From contig DYIW01000008.1 in assembly GCA_020723465.1 (NCBI GenBank), forward strand, positions 1 to 43,877: a stretch of DNA of 43,877 bases. The letters are read 5' to 3'. The stretch comes from Phycisphaera mikurensis. GTDB lineage: Bacteria; Planctomycetota; B15-G4; JADJEK01. The notes under the pieces were generated by a model. The model ran no database searches, was not told the DNA's origin, and worked only from the letters and a program-made list of their open reading frames with translations. Made by a program: the position numbers and the translations under genes. Shown one piece after another: positions 1 to 28,081 of the stretch (the first letter of the stretch is position 1; every line of letters starts with the position of its first letter).

Positions 1-2
1 AC

Positions 3-896
3 GCGACCGTCAGCCTCTTCGGGTCGGACGTGGACGGCGACGAGCAGCAGGACATCGTGGTGCTGCGCCGCGGCGCGGGCGTGCCGGACAGCTTGCTCGT
101 CTTCCATCTCCCGGCGCAGGTGAACGGCGAGACCGGACCGCCGTTCCGCTCGGATCTCGATGTATCGCCCGCGGACGGAGGCGCGATCCAGGGCGTCTGG
201 CGCCTGAGGTCGGACCTGACGGAGGTCTACCGCGCGCTCTTCCTGATCGCTGCGCCGGCTGGCGTGCAGCGCTTGGAGCTTCGCGACTTCCCGCCCGGGG
301 TCGGCTCGGACGTGGGTGCGCCGCTCTTGACGCACGGCGACCTCACCGTGAGCGGCTACACGATTCCGGTGTTCGGCGCCTTCGGCGCGCGCGACGGCGT
401 CGCTCCGCCCGAGCCGTGGGAGCTGTTCCAGGGCGAGTGGCAGGCCTCCTTCTGGATCGTCTACAAGGACGGCCAGGGCGGCTTCATCGAGGAGTGGCTC
501 GGCCCCTTCCCCGGCGTCACCGGCACGGTCGAGACCTCGCCCTACCCGTACCTGACGCTCGAGTTCCCGCCGGGCACGACCTACGGGATCACGCCCATCG
601 AGGGCTACGTGACCGGCTGGGACGACAGTGACCAGGCGCTCTTCGCCCTGCCCGGCACCGCACAGAGCCCGCAGGTGTGGTACTACCCGCCGATCGAGAT
701 CGGGATCATCACGCTCGGCGACTACATCGACGTCACCTATCCCTGGGGGACGATCTCCAGGCCCGAGGGCCAGTTGCCCGTGATCCAGGGCGGCGTTCCC
801 GACGTGGGCGCGCCCTACATCGGCAACATCTGGCTGCCGGACAACGTCACGGCCATCGCCACGGTCTTCGCCTACAGGTTCGAGCGCGTGCCGTAG
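3..896 (+). CDS. Secreted/extracellular hypothetical protein, FG-GAP/VCBS-like end (5' truncated by window)
   Basis: The frame is open to the window edge (ATVSLFGSDVDGDEQQDIVVLRR...); the DVDGDEQQDIVV motif resembles FG-GAP/VCBS calcium-loop repeats; stop at 894-896. Confidence 0.6.
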   Translation, partial: ATVSLFGSDVDGDEQQDIVVLRRGAGVPDSLLVFHLPAQVNGETGPPFRSDLDVSPADGGAIQGVWRLRSDLTEVYRALFLIAAPAGVQRLELRDFPPGVGSDVGAPLLTHGDLTVSGYTIPVFGAFGARDGVAPPEPWELFQGEWQASFWIVYKDGQGGFIEEWLGPFPGVTGTVETSPYPYLTLEFPPGTTYGITPIEGYVTGWDDSDQALFALPGTAQSPQVWYYPPIEIGIITLGDYIDVTYPWGTISRPEGQLPVIQGGVPDVGAPYIGNIWLPDNVTAIATVFAYRFERVP

Positions 897-1028
897 CGCG
901 GCCGTCCCGCTCTCTCGCCTGCCCGGTTGACTTGTCCGGGGCGCGAGCTAGCAGAAGCGGGTTGCACTGCGCCTCGCTGGACGGCAAGGCCCGCGGCCAG
1001 TCCTCGTTCGCCTCTCGGGAGTCCCGGC

Positions 1029-1922
1029 ATGACCATCGACCGCCCAGTCCTCGCCCTGTTCCTCGTCCTGGCCCTTGCGGCAGGCGCGGCCGCAGGGCCG
1101 GTGAAGGATTTCGAGCAGGCAGCAGAGCAGCGGATCGCGCAGGCGCGCACCGAGCTGACCGCGGCCGCCGCGCAGATGGAGGCGTCGCTCGCTGCTTTCG
1201 AGGCCGGCATCAAGGCGAACAACCTGGACAACGTGCTGATCGACACGCTGCTTGATGACACCCTCGAGTTCCACAGCACCGTCGTGAGCGTGTGGACGGA
1301 GGCGGGCGAGGACCTCGCCGCCCTGGCGAGCGACGGGCTCGAGGAGCTGACGGCCGTCGAGCCCCTGAACGGCATCTACCCCAAGGACTTCCTGGCCGGC
1401 GGCGGCGGAGCCTTCGACCAGGCGGTCAAGAAACTCGGCCAGGAGGTGCGCAAGGCGGTGAAGAAGGCGCGCAAGGCTGCCGCCAAGGCCGTGAAGGGGG
1501 CGGCCAAGTCCGGCGTCGACCTGGTGCTCGACGTGCGTGTTCCCAGGGAGCGGACCTACTCGGTGCCGAACGAGGCCGGCAGCTTCTCGGACGCCGGCAA
1601 CGACCACTACCTCGACGTCTACCTGGTGGGCGCGGTGTCACGACTCGACGTAGCGGAGGATGTGCGCATCTTCGGGGCGGGCGGGATGATCGGCTTCTTC
1701 AACGATGACGCCCACTTCCGGGCCGTGAGCCGCGGCCCGACGGGCTCGACCATCTTCGACTTCGCGGACGCGCCTCCCATCGAGGACGTGGTGCAGGGCT
1801 TCGACGGCTGGAAGGCCATACTCGACGGCGCGGGTTCGGGCCTGCGCGAGGGCAACTGGGTGGTGAGCGCCGCCGGCAAGCCCAGCTACGCCGACGGCGT
1901 CGCGCGGGTCGGGATCCGCTAG
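1029..1922 (+). CDS. Secreted hypothetical protein with signal peptide and Ala/Lys-rich helical segment
   Basis: ATG at 1029 gives MTIDRPVLALFLVLALAAGAAAG (signal peptide); the in-frame ORF extension upstream of 1029 looks non-coding. Confidence 0.6.
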   Translation: MTIDRPVLALFLVLALAAGAAAGPVKDFEQAAEQRIAQARTELTAAAAQMEASLAAFEAGIKANNLDNVLIDTLLDDTLEFHSTVVSVWTEAGEDLAALASDGLEELTAVEPLNGIYPKDFLAGGGGAFDQAVKKLGQEVRKAVKKARKAAAKAVKGAAKSGVDLVLDVRVPRERTYSVPNEAGSFSDAGNDHYLDVYLVGAVSRLDVAEDVRIFGAGGMIGFFNDDAHFRAVSRGPTGSTIFDFADAPPIEDVVQGFDGWKAILDGAGSGLREGNWVVSAAGKPSYADGVARVGIR

Positions 1923-2098
1923 CGCCAGAGCCATCCGCTGTGATCCTCGGGCATCCACCACCGCGCCGTGGCGCGAGTCCGGCGATGCCAGGCAGCACGA
2001 ATCCGGCGAATCTTGAAGCCGTTGGCGCGGCGGCGGGATACTGGTGACCGGAGCCGAACCTCCGGGGCCTCTCGCCGTATCGGGACGCCGGGCAACAC

Positions 2099-5000
2099 AT
2101 GGAAGTGAAGACCCTTCTCACGCACGCCGGTTTCGTCCGGGCGCTGGCGCGGAGCCTGGTCGGGGAAGAGAGCCGCGCGGCGGACGTGGAGCAGCAGACG
2201 TGGCTGGCGGCGCTCGAGCATCCACCCGGGCCCGAGAAGCCGCTTCGCGCCTGGCTTGCGCGCGTGGCCCGGAACTGCGCGCGCCGCGGCTTTCGCGACG
2301 AGACCCGGCGCCGGGCGCGGGAGGCCTCGCTCCGCGGGGAGGCCGTGCCCACGCCCGCGGAGATCCTGGCGCGCGAGGAGGCGCGGCGGCACATGGTCGA
2401 GGCCCTGCTCGACCTGGAGGAGCCGTACCGATCCGCCATCCTGCTGCGCTTCTATGAGGACCTGCCGGTCTCGGAGGTGGCCCTGCGGCTCGGCGTGCCG
2501 CGCGCGACGGTCAAGACGCGCCTCGTGCGCGGCCTGGCGCGCCTGCGCGGCCGGCTGGACGCCCGCTACGGCGGCGACCGGAAGGGGTGGTGCGTCGCGC
2601 TCGGACCTCTTGCCGGGATCGAGGCCGACGCGGCGGTTTCATTGCTCGGCGCGGTGACGGGAGCGCTCACCATGGGTCTCAAAGTGAAGGTCGCCTGCGC
2701 GGCCGTGGTTCTGCTCGGCGGCACGCTCGCTTTCTGGCAGGTGCTTCGCGACGAGCCGGCGTACGAGGCAACGACCGCGCATTCGAGCGCACCGAGCGTG
2801 TCATCCGAGGACCCGGTCGAGAACGGCGGCACGCTCGACGCCGCCGCCGCGGCCGGGGCGCTGGCCGAGGCTCTTCCCGAGCCGGACCGGGCGGCGGTTC
2901 GCGCCACGCCCCAGCTCTCCGGCACGGTCAGGGATCTGACCACGGACGAGCCCGTGCGCGCGTTCGACATCACGGTCCGGCGTCGTGCGCCTGCGAGGAC
3001 CTCGCCGGACGAGGTCGCTCACTGCACCGTGCGCGATGAGAAGGGCGCCTTCTCGATACCCGTGGACGAGGCGGGCCGTTACCTGATCATCGTGCGGTCA
3101 TCGCGCCACCTCCAGCAATCGGTGGACGACCTGGACGTGGGCGAAGAGGGACTCGGAGCGATCCTGGTGCGTCTCGATCCGGGCATGGCCGTCACCGGCC
3201 GGGTCGTCTGCGGCGAGACCGGGGAACCCGTGCCAGGGGCCATCGTGGCCGCGACCGACGTTCCCGGCATGTCGGATCACCTCGAACTCCTCTTGGGCTT
3301 CGACGAGGCCAAAGTGCACGCCACCACGGACGACCAGGGCCGCTTCGTCTTGCAGGGACTCATGCGTCAACAGCAGATCGTCGCCGCCTCGCACCCCGAG
3401 TTCGCCGAGGGCTTTCGCGAGATCGCACCCGACCGGCCGGACGCCGGGGACATCCATCTCGGTCGCGGGCATCATTTGTTCGGCTGCGCCCGCACGGACG
3501 CGGGTGCTCCCGCTGCCGGTGTCGCCATCCACGTCTCCGGAAAGGGGACTCCGTTCACCCGGACCGTGCTGACTGCTTCGGACGGAACCTTTCGCACGCC
3601 CCCGGTCGCGCCCGGGTGGGTGCGGGTGCGCGCCGAGGCCAGCCTGTCGGCTGCCGCGAGCGACGGCCCGGATCGCTTCACCGATGAGCGGAAGAACGTC
3701 GAGGTCGTCGATCGGGACGTCGAGCTCGACTTCGGCGTGACCGACGAGCACGTCACCTGGCGCGGAAGGGTGCTCGACTTCGACGGCGCTCCGGTGGCAC
3801 GCGCCAGGCTCCAGCTCAATCCCCGGGCGCAGGGCAAGAGCAGCTTGCCGGTTCGTAATCAAAGGCACCACGTCTATTGCGGCGAGAAGGGCGAGTTCGA
3901 GGCACGAAAGGTCCTGCCAGGCACCTACGGAGTCGAGATCTGGTTTCGGAAGGGCGGTGGGAAGGTCGACTGGGGCGAGTTGTCCTTCGATGCGCCTGGT
4001 GTCGTGGAGAGAGACGTCCGCATCTCCGGCGGCCTGATTGGTGGTGTCGTGGTGGACGGCCGCACCGGGACTCCGGTTTCGACGCCCAATGGAAACGTGC
4101 TGGCCTCGAGCGGCACGAGTGAGTACCGGATCTTCATGGCGCCGATCGGTCCGGGAGGTCGGTTCCGCCTGACGGGCCTGCCTTCCGGCACCTACAGCGT
4201 CTCGGCTTCAGTTCCGGGATACCCTTGGGAAAGCCTGTCGGGAGTGATCCTCGAGGACAACGAGAAGGTCGACGATCTGTGCATCAAGCTCGAACCCGGC
4301 GGCATTCTCAGGCTGCGCCTCTCCGGGTTCACGCTCGGGGGCGTGCAGCGCTTCGAAGGCGTCCTGAGGGGAGGCCCGTACGGGCTGACCGGGTCCAGCA
4401 GCTTGTCTGGCGACCTGGACCGCGACGGATCCTGCGATCAGGAGTGTCACCTGCACCCAGGGCTCTACCACGCGACCCTCTCCGTGCAGGGCTGCGGCAC
4501 GGTGGAGCGAGATTTCGAGATCACGTGCGGCCAAACGACCGAGCTGCTCTTCGGTCCCGAGGACCTGAAGAGCGCGGTGCGGACGTTCGAGGTCGCTGGC
4601 AGCATCACGCGCTCGGACGGCCTGCCGCTGGCTGGCGCGACGCTTCTCCTCCTGGACAGCAAGGCCGCTCCGGACTCTGCGCGTGAGACCATCCGGTTCA
4701 TCGCGGACTCGGACGGTCGTTTCCAGGCCAGCGGGCTGCCGGCCGGATCCTGGTCCGTGCATGCGACCTTCGCGCAGGGCGGCGAGTTCGTCTTTCCGGA
4801 CCTGACCATCGATCCGAACGGCCCGGATCTCGTCACGCTCGACCTCGTGCTTCCTTCCGGCGAGGTGACAGGGACGCTCCGCGACCGGCATAGCGGGCGC
4901 GAGTTCGACGGCGACGGTCCGGTCTGGTGGGTCGTCTTGCGGGACTCTCGGACGGGCGAACTCGTGACCGAGCTGCAGGGCGGACATAGAGGACGGCGCT

Positions 5001-5383
5001 TCCTCCTGGTGGGCGTGCCGGAGGGCGAGTACGCGGTCGATGTCACTGCGGTGGGGTATCAGGACTACCGGTCAGCGACTTTCGCTGTCGGGCCGGAACC
5101 GCACCTCGAGCTGGGGGACATCGAGCTCATGCCCTCTGGAGTCCTCGACCTCGAGGTCGTGGACCAGCACGGCCGGCACGTCAAGGTGTTCGACATCGAT
5201 TGCGAAGGCGCGGCGCGTATCCGGGGCGAAGATCGTTCGCTCGGTGTCTGCCGGTTCTCGGGCCTGCCGCTCGGGGAAATCACGATCCGCGTCAAGGCGG
5301 AAGGGTTCGTGGATCAGAGCGTGACGACCCGGCTCGAACCAGGGCAGCCCGGCAAGGTGAAAGTCGTGCTGGAGCGGCCGTAA
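2099..5383 (+). CDS. ECF sigma-70 factor fused via a TM helix to CarboxypepD_reg-like repeats
   Basis: The N-terminus has sigma r2/r4 features (DVEQQTWLAALEH, RAWLARVARNCARRGFRDE, LLRFYEDLPVSEVALRLGVPRATVKTRLVRGLARLRGRL); TM MGLKVKVACAAVVLLGGTLAFW; then repeated G.V.....G.PV.GA.V......D..G.F...GL..G.Y.V modules. Confidence 0.85.
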   Translation: MEVKTLLTHAGFVRALARSLVGEESRAADVEQQTWLAALEHPPGPEKPLRAWLARVARNCARRGFRDETRRRAREASLRGEAVPTPAEILAREEARRHMVEALLDLEEPYRSAILLRFYEDLPVSEVALRLGVPRATVKTRLVRGLARLRGRLDARYGGDRKGWCVALGPLAGIEADAAVSLLGAVTGALTMGLKVKVACAAVVLLGGTLAFWQVLRDEPAYEATTAHSSAPSVSSEDPVENGGTLDAAAAAGALAEALPEPDRAAVRATPQLSGTVRDLTTDEPVRAFDITVRRRAPARTSPDEVAHCTVRDEKGAFSIPVDEAGRYLIIVRSSRHLQQSVDDLDVGEEGLGAILVRLDPGMAVTGRVVCGETGEPVPGAIVAATDVPGMSDHLELLLGFDEAKVHATTDDQGRFVLQGLMRQQQIVAASHPEFAEGFREIAPDRPDAGDIHLGRGHHLFGCARTDAGAPAAGVAIHVSGKGTPFTRTVLTASDGTFRTPPVAPGWVRVRAEASLSAAASDGPDRFTDERKNVEVVDRDVELDFGVTDEHVTWRGRVLDFDGAPVARARLQLNPRAQGKSSLPVRNQRHHVYCGEKGEFEARKVLPGTYGVEIWFRKGGGKVDWGELSFDAPGVVERDVRISGGLIGGVVVDGRTGTPVSTPNGNVLASSGTSEYRIFMAPIGPGGRFRLTGLPSGTYSVSASVPGYPWESLSGVILEDNEKVDDLCIKLEPGGILRLRLSGFTLGGVQRFEGVLRGGPYGLTGSSSLSGDLDRDGSCDQECHLHPGLYHATLSVQGCGTVERDFEITCGQTTELLFGPEDLKSAVRTFEVAGSITRSDGLPLAGATLLLLDSKAAPDSARETIRFIADSDGRFQASGLPAGSWSVHATFAQGGEFVFPDLTIDPNGPDLVTLDLVLPSGEVTGTLRDRHSGREFDGDGPVWWVVLRDSRTGELVTELQGGHRGRRFLLVGVPEGEYAVDVTAVGYQDYRSATFAVGPEPHLELGDIELMPSGVLDLEVVDQHGRHVKVFDIDCEGAARIRGEDRSLGVCRFSGLPLGEITIRVKAEGFVDQSVTTRLEPGQPGKVKVVLERP

Positions 5384-5410
5384 AGAGCGGCAGCTCATTG
5401 CGGCGTCCGC

Positions 5411-7963
5411 TCAATACGCCAGCGCCTTCTCCACGCGGTCGAGGTGCAGAGGCTCGCCCTGGTGCTGCGCGCGCGCGATCTGGAACAGCTCGTTGAAGAC
5501 GTGCCAGGGCACGAAGTAGAGGAGCGGCCGCGCACCCTGGACGTCGGCCTCGAGGTAGGGGGAGAGCGGCGCGCGCTCGGCCAGGAGCAGGACCAGCGCG
5601 GCGGCGTCCTCGATGACTCCCTGGGACGCCGCGGCGAGCGCCAGGCCCGCGAGCGCCTCGTTCACGCCGAGCTCGGCCTCGTCCGCGGGCGCCGGAGCGA
5701 GGCGAGCGCGGCCGTAGTAGAAGGCCGCGCCGGAGACGTTCCGCGCCGCGACCTCGGCCCGGCCGCGGAGCAGCAGCGTGCGCCTTCTGCTCTCGTCGAT
5801 GGCGAGGGCGGCATCGAGCAGCTCAATGGCCTGGAAGGGTCGTCCAACGTGGATGTCCACCTCGGCCAGGACCTCGAGCACGGGCGAGGCCGTGGGCGCG
5901 CGGCGCGCCGCCCGCTCCGCCAGGTCGAGGGCGCGCGCCGAGAGGCCCGTGCTCTGCTCGGGCAGGAGGCGCGCGAACTCGAGGATGGCTTTCGCTCCCT
6001 GCGCCAGGAAGAAGGCGTCTTCCTCGTGGCGCTCGAGGCCGAGCCCGAGCTGCCGCCCCAGCTCGAGCACGAGTTCGGCAGGAGCGCGCTCGCCCCCGCG
6101 CCGCGCCTCGCGCACCAGGGCGGCCGCCAACCGGCCGCGGTACTCGGACACCTGGGGCGCCCACTCGGTCGCCTGCGCGAGCAGTCGCGCCTCCTCGGCC
6201 GGGCTGCCGCGCGCCAGGCGGATGACCTCGGCCGAGCGGGCGTTCACGTCCGCGAGCAGGCGGAGCGCGTCGTCGTACGCCAGACGGCAGAAGGCGAGGG
6301 CGGCGAGCGCCGCGAGGGCGATCTTGCCTGCGCGCGGGCGGTCCGGGACGATCCGCTCCGCGCCGCGCGCCGCATCGGCCCGACCCGCTCGCGCCAGCAG
6401 GAACACGGCCGCGGCCACGAGCGCGAGCAGGAGCAGCGTCTCGAGCCGCGCGCGCTCGGCCGCGACCTGTGCACCAAAGGCGGCGCGCGTGGCCGCGCCT
6501 CCCGGATCGAGGAAGAGGTGCAGGCCGAGGAACGGCAGGAACACGGCCGCGGCCGCGCCGAGCGCGCGCGTTCTGCCGGCCGCGGGCAGGAGCAGCAGGA
6601 AGGGCAGTGCCACCCAGAGGTGCGCAAGCGAGCCCAGACTGAAGAGCGCGGCCGAGAGCGCCACGCCGCAGAGGATGCCGCGCGCGGCCGGGCCCGGCTC
6701 GCTGTCCTCCGCCTCGCGCGGGGCGGCGGCTCTCCCGGCGAGCCAGCCGGCCGCGGCGAAGAGCAGCAGGCGCGAGATGGAACCGGGCACGGAGAACAGG
6801 CCGTCCAGGTAGTTGGCGACGAGACCCCCGGCGAGCCCGGCCGCGAGCTGGGCCTCGCCGCCTTGCAGGCCGGCGCGAAGCGACCGGCGCGCGGCGAGGA
6901 GCGCGCCGAGCGCCAGGAGGAGCAGGGCCAGCGGCGCCAGCAGGCCGCGCGTGTAGAGCAGGTCGAGCGGATCGCTGTGCAGGCGATCGACGCGCCGCGC
7001 CCCGCCGAGCCGGCGCTGCAGCTCCGCGCTGATCTGCTGCGTGAACAGCGGTCCGACCGTGTCCGGCCCGCGGCCGAGCAGCAGGTGTTCGGGCTCGGCT
7101 AGCACGGCCGCGGCCGCGTCGCGGTAGATGAGCCCGCGCACCTCCAGCTCGCGGCCGAGGAACTCCGAGGCGATGCGGCTCGGCAGCGAGTCCGCGGGCA
7201 GGAGGCCGCGGAGCGGCGTGCACGCGGCCGCGAGGAGGAGCGCGACGAGCGCGCCCGCGGCAAGAAGCACGACGCGGCGGCGCGCGGGCTCGGCCGCGAG
7301 AGCGACCAGCGCCACGCCCGCGAGCGCGGCGAGGAGCGCCACGCGCGAGCCCGTGAGCAGCAGCCCGGCGGCGAGCACGGCGGCGAGCGCGCCGCCCATC
7401 CGGCCCTGCGCGCGCGCGACCGCCAGCGGCAGGAGCACGGCGAGCTGCGAACCCAGGAACGTCGGCCCGCCGGTGAAGGCCGCGGCGCGCGTGGCCGCGG
7501 CCTGGGAGGCGAAGGGGACCTCGAGGCCAAGCGACTGCGCGCCGCCGAGCAGCGCGGCCGCGGCGCCGCCGAGGAGCAGCACCTCGGCGAAGAGCCGGGA
7601 CAGGCCTGATCTCGTGGCCACGCCCGCGGCCAGCAGGAAGACTCCCATCAGGCCGATGTCGGTCGCAAGGCCGGCCTGGCGCAGGTACTCGCCGGCCATG
7701 GCCGTGGCCGGGATCTCAGAGCCGAGCGCGGCTGAGATCGAGGCCAGCAGGTAGAGGCACGCGGCGAGGAGCGGCAGCCCCAGGCGCGGGAGGAAGGCGG
7801 GACAGAGCAGCACGGTGATCAGGCCGGCGCTGCCGAGCAGGCGCAGGATGATGACGCGGTCCTCCTCGAAGCCGCGGCTGCTGTGCGGATTGGCGAGGAT
7901 CGGCACCACGGCGGCCGCGACCAGCAGGATGGCCGTCCCGGCCCGGCCCGCGGCGCGGCTCAT
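5411..7963 (-). CDS. O-antigen ligase/polymerase-like multi-TM protein with C-terminal TPR-like region
   Basis: Many hydrophobic TM segments; Wzy_C-like region (LLGRGPDTVGPLFTQQISAELQRRLGGARRVDRLHSDPLDLLYTRGLLAPLALLLL) followed by TPR-like helices. Confidence 0.75.
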   Translation of the reverse strand: MSRAAGRAGTAILLVAAAVVPILANPHSSRGFEEDRVIILRLLGSAGLITVLLCPAFLPRLGLPLLAACLYLLASISAALGSEIPATAMAGEYLRQAGLATDIGLMGVFLLAAGVATRSGLSRLFAEVLLLGGAAAALLGGAQSLGLEVPFASQAAATRAAAFTGGPTFLGSQLAVLLPLAVARAQGRMGGALAAVLAAGLLLTGSRVALLAALAGVALVALAAEPARRRVVLLAAGALVALLLAAACTPLRGLLPADSLPSRIASEFLGRELEVRGLIYRDAAAAVLAEPEHLLLGRGPDTVGPLFTQQISAELQRRLGGARRVDRLHSDPLDLLYTRGLLAPLALLLLALGALLAARRSLRAGLQGGEAQLAAGLAGGLVANYLDGLFSVPGSISRLLLFAAAGWLAGRAAAPREAEDSEPGPAARGILCGVALSAALFSLGSLAHLWVALPFLLLLPAAGRTRALGAAAAVFLPFLGLHLFLDPGGAATRAAFGAQVAAERARLETLLLLALVAAAVFLLARAGRADAARGAERIVPDRPRAGKIALAALAALAFCRLAYDDALRLLADVNARSAEVIRLARGSPAEEARLLAQATEWAPQVSEYRGRLAAALVREARRGGERAPAELVLELGRQLGLGLERHEEDAFFLAQGAKAILEFARLLPEQSTGLSARALDLAERAARRAPTASPVLEVLAEVDIHVGRPFQAIELLDAALAIDESRRRTLLLRGRAEVAARNVSGAAFYYGRARLAPAPADEAELGVNEALAGLALAAASQGVIEDAAALVLLLAERAPLSPYLEADVQGARPLLYFVPWHVFNELFQIARAQHQGEPLHLDRVEKALAY

Positions 7964-8832
7964 GCCTCGAGCCCCCGGCGGACGTCAGGCGGGAGCGCGA
8001 AGAGCGCGGCCGCGGCCGGGCCGTCGAGCGAGCGCGGCGACTTCGCCAGGCGGCGGCCGAAGCGCTCGTCCAGGCGCGCCGCGTCGAGAACAAGCGGCCG
8101 GCTCGAGGCGACGAGCACGCCCCACGCGCCGTAGAACGAGGGCACGAAGATGCGGCCAGGCAGCACGTGCGCGAACACCGAGCGCACGCTCGCCAGCACG
8201 CGCGCGGCCTCCCGCACGCTCGCGCCGAAGACCGGGCCGTACTGCATGGCCAGCACGCCGTGCGGCTCGAGCCGCTCCTGCAGCAGGCGCAGGAAGGCCG
8301 GCTGGAACAGGTGCGCGGCCGGGCCGCCCTCGCCCGGATCGACCAGGTCGAAGACGATGGCGTCATGGCGGTCAGCGAACCGGCGCAGGTGCTGCTCCGC
8401 GTCCTGGATGCAGAGGACGGTGCGCGCGTCGTCGAAGGCGCCGGCGTGATGGTCGGGCAGGTGCTTGCGGCAGGCGGCCACGACCCTCCCGTCGAGGTCC
8501 ACCATGACCGCGCGCGCGACGCTCTGGTGGCGCAGAACCTCGCGCAGGGTCGCCCCTTCACCGCCCCCCAGGATGAGCACGCTCCTCGGCCCGGGATCGT
8601 CGAGGAGGAGCAGGGCCGGATGCACCAGCGCCTCATGGTAGACGTGCTCGTCTCGTTCCGCGGACTGCAGGCGGCCGTCGAGCACGAGCGCGCGGCCGTG
8701 CGCCGCGAGGTCGACGATGAGGATCTCCTGGTGCGGCGAACGGGCGGAGTAGAGGACCTCCTTCACCTCGAGCTGGATGACTTCGCCCGGGTCGGCGTCA
8801 TGCAGCAGCAGCGTGGGCGGATAGGACGTCAC
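7960..8832 (-). CDS. speE: Spermidine synthase family protein
   Basis: SARSPHQEILIVD, LVLDGRLQSAERDEHVYHEALVHPAL, VLILGGGEGATLREVLRHQSV, VDLDGRVVAACRKHLPDHHAGAFDDAR, DAIVFDLVDPGE. Confidence 0.9.
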   Translation of the reverse strand: MTSYPPTLLLHDADPGEVIQLEVKEVLYSARSPHQEILIVDLAAHGRALVLDGRLQSAERDEHVYHEALVHPALLLLDDPGPRSVLILGGGEGATLREVLRHQSVARAVMVDLDGRVVAACRKHLPDHHAGAFDDARTVLCIQDAEQHLRRFADRHDAIVFDLVDPGEGGPAAHLFQPAFLRLLQERLEPHGVLAMQYGPVFGASVREAARVLASVRSVFAHVLPGRIFVPSFYGAWGVLVASSRPLVLDAARLDERFGRRLAKSPRSLDGPAAAALFALPPDVRRGLEA

Positions 8833-9203
8833 GGCGCCTGCGCGTCCACCACGCCCGCGCCGAAGCCACGCTTGACCTCGACGCGGCGTTGGCGCGTTGC
8901 GCGCAGAGACAGCGCCAGCCGGTCGGCGGCCGCGCGCGCGTCGAAAGCGCTGCCGCAGGTGTAGATGTCGAGCGTGGCCTTGCCGAGGTCGGGCCAGGTG
9001 TGCACCGAGAGGTGGGACTCGGCGATGAGCAGCACGCCCGAGACCGCGGGCGGGTCGAAGGTGTGGAACGCTTCGGCGACGATGGTCGCGCCGCCCAGGA
9101 GCGCGGCCTCGCGCAGGCCGGCCCGGAGCGCGGCGCCGTCCTGCAGGAGCTCGCGCGGGCAGCCGTCGAGGTCCAGCAGCACGTGCGTGCCGAGATCGGT
9201 CAT
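8829..9203 (-). CDS. speD: S-adenosylmethionine decarboxylase proenzyme
   Basis: MTDLGTHVLLDLDGCPRELLQD...SGVLLIAESHLSVHTWPDLGKATLDIYTCG; ES cleavage/pyruvoyl motif present. Confidence 0.93.
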   Translation of the reverse strand: MTDLGTHVLLDLDGCPRELLQDGAALRAGLREAALLGGATIVAEAFHTFDPPAVSGVLLIAESHLSVHTWPDLGKATLDIYTCGSAFDARAAADRLALSLRATRQRRVEVKRGFGAGVVDAQAP

Positions 9204-25745: not shown

Positions 25746-27500
25746 TCAGACTCGCGGCAGGGCCTGGGCGAGCAGCCTCGCCAGGCGCGCCTGTTCGCAG
25801 GGCAGCGGCGGTTCGCCGTCGCTTCTCCAGCGCGCGGCGATGACCGCGGCCCGTTCCAGGAGCGGTTCGGCCGTGCTGCGCGCGAGAGGCGCGAGCAACG
25901 TCACGTGCTCGGCGCCGGCGCCCGCGCGGGCCGCGGCGCACAGGATCAAGGCCGCCGCGTCCTGATCGAGGAGCGCGGTCTCGAACACCGTGCCGAGCGC
26001 GCGCGGCCCGTCGAGGGCGCCGGCCTCCGCGAGCCCCAGGGCGGCGCGGGCGCGGCGCGCGGGCTGGCACTCGCGGTCCGCGAACACGGCAGCCAGGCAG
26101 TCGCGGAGCGTCCCGTTCGCGCAGAGCAGGGTCTCGACCAGACGCTCGCCCCAGGGCCCGCGCGCGGCCGCGCGCGCCAGGCGCGGCGCATCAGGGGCCG
26201 CGCGCAGCACGCGCACCATCGCCAGGCGCACGTCGGCACGGGCGGCGGCCGCGTGCGGTCCGCCGGCGCGCGCGTCCGTCTCGACGCCGGCGCCGAGCAA
26301 AGTGTAGAGCGCGGCCGCGCCGCCGATCCGCACCACGGCGTCGAGCGCCGCGCGCCGCAGGCGCGGCGTGGCGAAAAGCGCGCTCAGGGCGGGCAGCGCG
26401 CGCGCACCGCTTTCGTGGGCATAGAACAGGGCGGCCTCGAGCACTTCGGGGTCGGCACAGGCCGAGAGCAGTTCGAGCACCTGCTCGCTGCTCGGCAGGT
26501 CGCGCGCCGCGAGCGCCTGGGCGGCGAACGCGTCGCCGCCGGCGCGGCGCCGCAAGAGCTCGCCCAGGCCGACGTTCCCCATGTCGAGCAGCGCGGTGAG
26601 CGCCAGCTCCCGGACCTCGGGCCGAGCGAGCGCGTCGGCGAGCGTCCGCGCCGCCCGCGGACTGCCGCCGCGCGCCAGGCCGGCCGCCGCCGGCCCGGCA
26701 AGCCGCGCGTCGACCAGCAACCGCTCCAGCCGATCCACCTCCTGATCGCCGGCGAGCTGGCCGAGCGCCACGAGCGCCGCGGGCGCGGTCTCGGCGCGCA
26801 GCGCGGCCTCGCGCAGCGCAGGCACGGCGGCGGTGAGGGAAAGCTCGGCCGCGCCGCGAATGGCGGCCGCGGCGAAGTCCGCGTCCGCGGCCTTGATGGC
26901 CGCGACCACGATGCCCTCGATGGGCCAGTCCTCAGCCGCCAAGGAAGCGGTGCGCAGCTCGAACTCTCCGCGGTAGTCCGCGGCGCAGCCGGCCTGGAAC
27001 AGCGCGTCGTACACGGCACGGCGCGCGGCCTCGAGCCGGGCCGGAGCGACCGCGTCCGCGGGCGCCGGCGGCGTGCCGGCGCACGCGAGCGGGCTGTCGC
27101 TCCGCTCCGCGCCCCTGCCTGGCTGCGGCAGGAAGCACGGGAGCCAGAGCTCGCGCGAGAGCAGCAGGGCAACGGCGGCCGCGGCTGCAACCAGGAACCA
27201 GCGGGCGCGCGACGCGCGTGCCACAGGCGCTGTCTGGGCTCCGCTCGGCGCCGCGGCGTCGATGCGGCGGAGCACGCCGGCGGCGATGCGGTCCTCGAAG
27301 CCGCTGTCCGGTTCGAGCCCGCAGGAGCGGTGCAGCAGCTCCTCCACCTGCAGGTGGAAGTCGACGGCCTCGCGGCAGAGGGAGCAGCCCTCGAGGTGCG
27401 ACTCGAAGGCGATGCGCGGGGCCGCGGGCAGCTCGCCGTCGACGTGCAGGAGCAGTCGCCCGCGCCAGGCGCGGCAGCCGACCTTATGCGGCCTTTTCAT
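25746..27500 (-). CDS. Anti-sigma factor-like zf-HC2 protein with TM helix and extracytoplasmic HEAT-like repeats
   Basis: HVDGELPAAPRIAFESHLEGCSLCREAV (zinc finger), TM RWFLVAAAAAVALLLSRELWL, then Ala-rich HEAT-like helices. ATG at 27500 overlaps the sigma gene stop by 4 bp. Confidence 0.75.
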   Translation of the reverse strand: MKRPHKVGCRAWRGRLLLHVDGELPAAPRIAFESHLEGCSLCREAVDFHLQVEELLHRSCGLEPDSGFEDRIAAGVLRRIDAAAPSGAQTAPVARASRARWFLVAAAAAVALLLSRELWLPCFLPQPGRGAERSDSPLACAGTPPAPADAVAPARLEAARRAVYDALFQAGCAADYRGEFELRTASLAAEDWPIEGIVVAAIKAADADFAAAAIRGAAELSLTAAVPALREAALRAETAPAALVALGQLAGDQEVDRLERLLVDARLAGPAAAGLARGGSPRAARTLADALARPEVRELALTALLDMGNVGLGELLRRRAGGDAFAAQALAARDLPSSEQVLELLSACADPEVLEAALFYAHESGARALPALSALFATPRLRRAALDAVVRIGGAAALYTLLGAGVETDARAGGPHAAAARADVRLAMVRVLRAAPDAPRLARAAARGPWGERLVETLLCANGTLRDCLAAVFADRECQPARRARAALGLAEAGALDGPRALGTVFETALLDQDAAALILCAAARAGAGAEHVTLLAPLARSTAEPLLERAAVIAARWRSDGEPPLPCEQARLARLLAQALPRV

Positions 27501-28081
27501 GGTCCTTCTCCGAGCAGGTGCTCGCAGCGGCGCCGCAGGGACTGGCGCGCGAGCGAAACGTACACGCGGGCCGCGCCCGGCGTCGTGCCGAGGACCGCCG
27601 CCACCTCGGCGTACGCCAGGCCTTCGTAGACCTTCAGGAGGAGGGCAGCCTTCTGCCGCGGCGGCAGCTCCTCGAGGACTCTCTGCAGGTGCTCGGCGTC
27701 GTCGCGCGCCGCGGCGTGCCGTGCGGGACCGGCCGCGGGGCAAGGGAGGGCCGCGCCATCGTGCCCGCCTCTCCCGAACGTGCGCTCGCGTCGCGCCCGC
27801 TGGCGAATCTGGTCCTGTGCGAGGTTGAACGTGATGTGCAGGATCCAGGTCTTGAACGAGGCATGCCCGCGAAACGACGCCAGCGCCAGGAAGGCGTTTG
27901 TAAAAGCATCCTGGACAACGTCTTCCGCGTCCTCGCGGCTCTCGAGCAGGCGCGAGGCGATGCGGGCCGCGGCGCGCGCGTGTCGCCGTACGAGCTGCTC
28001 GAAGGCGCTCCGGTCCCCGGTCCTGGCAGCGGCCAGCAGGAGCGCGTCCTCGCCCGTCAAGGCCATCGCCGCCGTTCTCAT
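27497..28081 (-). CDS. ECF RNA polymerase sigma factor
   Basis: GDRSAFEQLVRRHARAAARIASRLLESREDAEDVVQDAFTNAFLALASFRGHASFKTWILHITFNLAQDQIRQRARRE ... LEELPPRQKAALLLKVYEGLAYAEVAAVLGTTPGAARVYVSLARQSLRRR. Confidence 0.93.
   Translation of the reverse strand: MRTAAMALTGEDALLLAAARTGDRSAFEQLVRRHARAAARIASRLLESREDAEDVVQDAFTNAFLALASFRGHASFKTWILHITFNLAQDQIRQRARRERTFGRGGHDGAALPCPAAGPARHAAARDDAEHLQRVLEELPPRQKAALLLKVYEGLAYAEVAAVLGTTPGAARVYVSLARQSLRRRCEHLLGEGP

Follow-up and report, generated by a model that had tools for sequence, protein, structure and literature searches.

A family of predicted membrane-tethered ECF sigma factors with CarboxypepD_reg ectodomains and putative promoters of their own in Planctomycetota

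Extracytoplasmic function (ECF) sigma factors fused to a transmembrane segment (TM) and an outside domain are an already known kind of protein, represented by IutY, ECF48, ECF52 and ECF53, each with a fused anti-sigma-like portion. The Pseudomonas putida protein IutY (ECF243), which is cleaved by Prc and RseP, consists of an ECF joined to a membrane-spanning and extracytoplasmic part and has no separate anti-sigma factor (PMC8999054, PMC7593790). In the actinobacterial groups ECF48, ECF52 (SCO4117 of Streptomyces coelicolor) and ECF53, the sigma factor is followed by a TM, a spacer and an extracytoplasmic domain, with a zinc-finger anti-sigma-like domain and extensions of up to ~400 residues; the part of SCO4117 that lies outside includes a carbohydrate-binding domain and a proline-rich region (PMC8999054). 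A comparable protein is encoded in the window, the whole 43,877-nucleotide stretch of DNA analysed here (Phycisphaera mikurensis, Planctomycetota; assembly GCA_020723465.1, contig DYIW01000008.1). The open reading frame (ORF) at 2099-5383 (+) begins with ATG and encodes 1094 amino acids (aa), in which an ECF sigma factor, a membrane helix and a CarboxypepD chain form one polypeptide. This window protein is probably a one-protein transmembrane signalling sigma factor that has no separate anti-sigma factor.

Like ECF48, ECF52 and ECF53, the window protein is predicted to carry a TM and an extracytoplasmic domain on the sigma polypeptide, but it has no zinc finger (no zf-HC2 in Pfam), extends ~880 residues past the TM and belongs to Planctomycetota. 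While IutY contains a fused anti-sigma portion and acts in iron/siderophore cell-surface signalling, no anti-sigma domain was detected in the window protein, and its outer part is a CarboxypepD/transthyretin chain; the FecR-type domain and partner outer-membrane receptor of ECF243 are likewise absent, with no FecR in Pfam and no such receptor among the neighbour genes. The WD40-fused planctomycete ECFs (ECF57 and relatives) share with the window family long C-terminal repeat extensions and many paralogues (PMC8567305, PMC8999054). However, the repeat fold differs, a conserved single TM comes right after sigma4, and no WD40 is among the families listed by Pfam in the C-terminal extensions, which are instead CarboxypepD_reg, Big_1, SdrD_B and the like. 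The closest known system in logic is SigI/RsgI of cellulolytic clostridia, also a set of paralogous autoregulated alternative sigmas with an extracytoplasmic sensory module each; there, a non-ECF sigma is paired with the separate anti-sigma RsgI, on which the sensor resides (PMC6056542), whereas in the window family the putative sensor and the sigma are one protein.

The head of the window protein is the reduced two-domain head of an ECF (group 4 sigma70), made up of sigma2 and sigma4. NCBIfam TIGR02937 (sigma70-ECF) matches it with 66.9 bits against a cut-off of 42.9, and no NCBIfam subfamily exceeds its own cut-off. CarboxypepD_reg is matched with an E value of 1.7e-63 over 6-8 stretches, and the weaker Pfam matches in the tail are to related beta-sandwich families. 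Pfam and NCBIfam together bear out the original prediction, made from the letters alone, of sigma regions 2 and 4 and CarboxypepD modules in one ORF. Its single strong hydrophobic segment also stands, although not at the exact position given (aa 192-213): the top segment lies slightly later, at aa 198-216, with a moderate Kyte-Doolittle value of 2.03. In an AlphaFold2 model (49 homologues; mean predicted local distance difference test [pLDDT] 76), the sigma head is confident, helices occur at 161-172 and over the hydrophobic segment, the spacer to ~aa 266 is of low confidence, and nearly everything beyond consists of beta strands. When the N-terminal 242 residues were modelled by themselves (86 homologues, pLDDT 88), a long continuous helix, 176-217, entered the membrane segment. 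By Foldseek, the sigma head is close to ECF sigmas, including SigL of Mycobacterium tuberculosis, and the outer part to surface beta-sandwich chains (Bacillus TIE protein, streptococcal pilins, Robo2, contactin).

The same architecture occurs in related genomes. A same-genus orthologue is 76% identical over residues 1-1094 and free of stops, and 91 ORFs with a sigma head, a hydrophobic segment and a long tail, from 15 Planctomycetota genomes, make up the family set. Because of this full-length orthologue and the 91 homologous fused ORFs, the window fusion is neither chance nor a sequencing or assembly artefact, and an artefact of assembly or frame is ruled out; homologues that consistently end after the TM, with a separate downstream gene, were not found, as only 1 of ~92 is split. 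Across the 91 fused ORFs, the TM starts a median of 24 residues past sigma4 (interquartile range 20-27.5) and is followed by an Ala/Pro/Glu-rich stretch; a second strongly hydrophobic segment is present in two. The linker consensus is LDxxxGGDRxxWxxALxPLA, with R161 and W164 close to invariant. Pfam finds CarboxypepD_reg in 84 of the 91, a share possibly inflated because the family was collected using the window protein as query, and a formylglycine-generating enzyme (FGE)-sulfatase domain in 2 of the first 49 members scanned. One sigma-TM protein, L076 (G000:C107), has a Pro/Glu-rich spacer and then a region starting like an FGE-sulfatase (formylglycine-generating enzyme-like) domain. A linker+TM profile matches 35 of 149 sampled Planctomycetota genomes in ~20 families, with at least 35 matches in some genomes, and nearly all among the matches listed sit in long open frames.

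In the genome from which the window comes (the source genome), a census drawn from retrieved stretches found 57 sigma genes, ~42 of them stand-alone. The fused sigmas comprise 13 intact genes, one split by TAG and one truncated at the end of a contig. These 15 form a single clade among the 51 sigmas analysed (support 97/95; 98% of bootstrap trees), which makes it most likely that the sigma-TM-ectodomain fusion arose once and later multiplied. Several origins within the source genome are ruled out by the sigma tree, though two promoter classes exist. In the split paralogue, C428 (L070, G000:C428; junction near 5459), the in-frame TAG lies between sigma4 and the TM, and its same-genus counterpart has no stop. 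The TAG would yield a free sigma and a separate anchored ectodomain, and may represent a pseudogene, an error or a real split.

The single TM, a charge bias and the N-terminal anchoring of CarboxypepD proteins that lack a sigma head make it very likely that the sigma is cytoplasmic and the beta modules are outside (N-in/C-out). In 69 of the 91 fused ORFs the residues preceding the TM carry a more positive net charge than those following it; in 13 the two are equal. When 24 non-sigma CarboxypepD_reg frames were sampled from the source genome, a simple rule identified an N-terminal anchor or signal peptide in 20; the four exceptions include one frame open at the 5' end and two whose signal-peptide-like start has no positive charge. 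The anchored proteins mostly continue with a similar Ala/Pro-rich spacer, and the anchor is often of the same style (e.g. 'MNARTARSLVGLIVLLAFASVLLLLRDGEPDLPAVP...'). CarboxypepD_reg (PF13620) is much expanded in this genome, with at least 149 domain matches in dozens of ORFs, mostly signal-anchored and without sigma. These signal-anchored proteins resemble the fused sigmas in their TM-like anchor, Ala/Pro-rich spacer and beta modules, but have a short cytoplasmic tail in place of the sigma head and no sigma-type promoter. The sigma head therefore looks like a cytoplasmic part placed on a signal-anchored surface protein. Weighing against this topology, net charge disfavours N-in in 9 of the 91 ORFs, and simple counts of lysine and arginine around the TM show no bias. 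The near-constant TM position in the 91 ORFs and the anchored non-sigma relatives nevertheless agree with the original prediction of a tethered sigma with its modules outside the cytoplasm.

A reading in which the hydrophobic segment does not span the membrane and the beta chain serves as a cytoplasmic platform for protein-protein interaction, after the manner of the WD40-fused planctomycete ECFs, is very unlikely. Such proteins have been reported, from an organism some of whose ECFs are found in detergent-soluble fractions (PMC8567305), and the window TM is only moderately hydrophobic (2.03). However, a hydrophobic 19-mer occupies nearly the same place in 91 members and is followed by an Ala/Pro-rich spacer, most of the genome's non-sigma proteins with the same modules have an N-terminal anchor, and the nearest folds are those of surface proteins and receptors.

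Most fused sigma genes carry what is predicted to be an ECF-type promoter of their own, unlike the stand-alone sigmas of the source genome. De novo analysis of the 91 upstream regions yielded the motif TGAAcCG-N12-GCGGCAT, with nearly fixed spacing and usually 36-46 bases before the ATG; its log-likelihood was 318, compared with 60-69 in shuffled upstreams. With one genome left out at a time, 39 of the 91 fused genes reach a score of 12 or more, compared with 0.7% of background windows. In the source genome, a score of at least 10 is reached by 9 of the 13 intact fused genes and by none of the 44 other sigma genes, which include the TAG-split and contig-cut paralogues. At the same score the promoter is absent upstream of all 18 non-sigma anchored CarboxypepD genes (0/18), and these genes were rejected as a regulon. 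At 2014-2039 the window gene has the copy TGAAGCC-N12-GCGGGAT, within a block that is also conserved in the same-genus orthologue, while much of the remaining upstream region differs. Judged computationally, the window gene thus has the autoregulatory ECF-type promoter of an ECF sigma. Fused sigmas of a second subclade, in which 41-51 residues separate sigma4 from the TM, share another element, ACGTTT ... CG(T/A)CAA, at about -39 to -42.

In the 67 fused genes with a site, each column of the promoter was set against the residues of the sigma, and pairs with z above 4 were taken as strong. Columns of the -35 element form 15 strong pairs with sigma4 versus 3 with sigma2, and those of the -10 element form 10 with sigma2 versus 1 with sigma4. 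The best pairs join residues 140, 139 and 136 to -35 columns 3, 7 and 5, respectively, and residue 63 to -10 column 24. The last sigma4 helix of ECFs is the part that reads the -35 element, and residues 136, 139 and 140 fall within this predicted helix (135-156). Over these four pairs, 208 of 223 cases (0.93) show agreement with the gene's own promoter, versus 0.645 +- 0.035 when promoters are swapped among same-genome siblings. Because the four pairs came from the same data, a held-out test was made in which rules learned in one genome set (one order) were tried in the other, with 2000 permutations. Concordance in one direction was 0.73, compared with 0.53 for siblings (0/2000 permutations as high); in the other direction, with all rules, it was 0.64 versus 0.58 (0/2000).

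That promoter bases covary with the sigma of the same gene, including in held-out genomes, argues that the sigma heads function and drive their own genes. It is a strong inference that the heads are working sigma factors, and there is a high probability that each autoregulates its own gene positively. Several results weigh against this reading. The main motif is missing in three or four of the 13 fused genes, largely those of subclade 2; the four tested pairs were selected from the data in which they were tested; and strong rules (z>=5) performed weakly in the other held-out direction (0.60 vs 0.53, with 63/2000 as high). The sigma tree has few supported branches, and an independent-pairs/independent-contrast test is underpowered; within-genome permutation and held-out tests were used for that reason. 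Furthermore, a whole-genome regulon search with a degenerate pattern gave 31 matches versus 17 in the reversed control, and neither a signal nor a partner was found, nor any regulon apart from the gene itself.

The idea that the sigma head is a relic on what is merely a surface protein draws on this missing regulon and on the ectodomain's resemblance to the genome's other anchored CarboxypepD proteins. It is highly improbable, given that the sigma2/sigma4 residues are conserved and that held-out genomes show covariation between the DNA-reading residues and the promoter of the same gene. One master sigma, rather than each gene's own, might also read the shared promoter of all fused genes, as the motif is a family-wide consensus and some cross-talk by sibling sigmas is likely. 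This is unlikely, because promoter bases track the gene's own sigma better than those of siblings (0.93 vs 0.65; held out 0.73 vs 0.53) and the second sigma subclade has a different promoter. As a route to the regulon, the genome-wide pattern search was too noisy and, apart from the fused sigma genes, returned isolated candidates only. One candidate regulon member is a gene for a TolC/NodT-like outer-membrane lipoprotein, which has a good copy of the family motif 42 bases upstream (L177, G000:C45:4089-4114).

Canonical ECF genes adjoin an anti-sigma gene. None lies beside the window gene, where the next gene downstream is convergent and encodes a Wzy_C protein, and the Pfam scan of the window protein gave no anti-sigma domain (no zf-HC2, no FecR). 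All four zf-HC2 proteins of the source genome directly adjoin stand-alone ECFs (C145, C84, C3 and the window pair near 27.4-28.1 kb), and none in that genome is found beside a fused sigma gene. An anti-sigma factor nearby or fused was rejected on this Pfam scan and zf-HC2 placement. A conserved operon partner was also rejected, as each neighbour family is found at 5 of the 91 fused loci at most. The earlier observation that no anti-sigma gene is adjacent thus holds at the window locus, for the zf-HC2 genes of the source genome and across the 91 loci, and the existence of a single-polypeptide family without a separate anti-sigma supports the suggestion that the sensor or tether is built into the sigma itself.

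In the proposed mechanism, a complete ECF head would be connected by the GGDRxxW linker to an N-in/C-out helix, a flexible spacer and an outer beta-sandwich chain. This ectodomain would sense a cue from the surface or the periplasm, be it a ligand, a polymer or tension, and would stand in for a separate anti-sigma factor. The tether would hold the sigma at the membrane until a signal frees it, most likely through two-step proteolysis at site-1 and then by an M50 site-2 protease. The freed sigma and RNA polymerase would then switch on the sigma's own gene and a further regulon, with positive feedback on the receptor. Activation via proteolytic release, which has about an even chance of being correct, is favoured over action in situ because of the analogy with IutY and the SCO4117 model. 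M50 site-2 proteases are encoded in the source genome, but they also occur in all 14 control genomes, and being universal their presence is no specific argument for proteolysis. In two genera, an M50 gene begins within a few bases after a CarboxypepD_reg gene (L253, 1-2509; L282 [G002:C651], M50 at 3752-4495); the CarboxypepD gene preceding M50 in G002 is signal-anchored, and neither M50-linked gene is sigma-fused. The modules and site-2 proteases therefore meet genetically, though without a sigma-fused member.

Alternatively, though with clearly less than even probability, the uncut protein may act in situ at the membrane like ToxR/CadC-type regulators. The ectodomain would then work through the linker helix to alter clustering or the way sigma2 and sigma4 are arranged, and RNA polymerase would be recruited to the membrane. 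The conserved GGDRxxW helix right after sigma4 and the long continuous helix into the TM could pass on a conformational change, and no dedicated protease gene adjoins the fused genes at the 91 loci. However, a tethered sigma must leave the elongating polymerase or travel with it, and we know of no precedent for a tethered sigma acting in situ. Moreover, the known membrane-fused ECF for which experiments exist, IutY, is switched on when Prc/RseP cleave it (PMC8999054).

Tentatively, the fused sigmas may form a repertoire of single-protein sigma receptors, up to at least 35 per genome in part of Planctomycetota, with a common sigma-linker-TM chassis, variable outer modules and their own co-evolved promoters, acting from the membrane without anti-sigma and possibly without proteolysis. 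If so, this would be a receptor family whose receptor is itself the sigma subunit.

New here are the ECF-type promoter that most fused genes appear to have and the covariation of its bases with the same gene's sigma. The sigma-TM-CarboxypepD architecture itself may have been described before; a literature search, which left aside the 2021 ECF classification of Casas-Pastor et al., returned no paper joining CarboxypepD_reg and sigma70. Membrane-fused ECFs were previously scattered cases with a fused anti-sigma domain and now include a large family, apparently of single origin, without a recognisable anti-sigma. The family is present in about a quarter of the sampled Planctomycetota genomes, often in 10-35 copies each, and one such protein may both sense outside signals and change gene expression. 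Since the promoter tracks the sigma's DNA-reading residues, each receptor's promoter specificity should be readable from sequence, and what is sensed and how the tethered sigma switches on should therefore be directly testable with simple reporters.

Table 1. Features of the fused sigma gene and its predicted promoter in the window, and loci of the second subclade
Feature	Position	Strand	Basis
-35-like element TGAAGCC	2014..2020	+	De novo motif of 91 upstream regions; block conserved with same-genus orthologue
-10-like element GCGGGAT	2033..2039	+	12 bases past -35 element; ends 59 bases before ATG
Fused sigma-TM-CarboxypepD_reg protein	2099..5383	+	ORF, Pfam, full-length same-genus orthologue
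Sigma70 region 2, aa 8-71	2120..2311	+	Pfam Sigma70_r2; residue 63 covaries with -10 element
Sigma70 region 4, aa 100-149	2396..2545	+	Pfam Sigma70_r4_2; recognition-helix residues 136, 139, 140 covary with -35 element
Linker motif GGDRxxWxxALxPLA, aa 158-172	2570..2614	+	Family conservation; predicted helix 161-172 after sigma4
Single predicted transmembrane helix, aa 198-216	2690..2746	+	Hydrophobicity, family position, structure models
Ala/Pro/Glu-rich spacer, aa 217-266	2747..2896	+	Composition of family's 60 aa post-TM; pLDDT mostly <50
Predicted extracytoplasmic CarboxypepD_reg/transthyretin-like beta-sandwich chain, aa 267-1094	2897..5380	+	Pfam; AlphaFold2 all-beta; Foldseek
Second-subclade fused sigmas	L080, L082, L083, L084, L260-L278		TM distance and ACGTTT...CG(T/A)CAA promoter

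Downstream of the fused gene, the convergent cluster at 5411-9203 (-) encodes the Wzy_C O-antigen-ligase-like protein, a spermidine synthase and an S-adenosylmethionine decarboxylase (AdoMetDC); the remaining neighbours in the window encode proteins without a Pfam match. Further along, 27372-28081 (-) encodes a classical stand-alone ECF with its zf-HC2 anti-sigma directly downstream. This anti-sigma lies in an open frame of 1249 aa that runs down to 25746 and may carry a large outer domain. At another locus, L129, two fused sigma genes, 1-2190 (-) and 2465-6229 (+), adjoin divergently, the minus-strand one being of a distant type.

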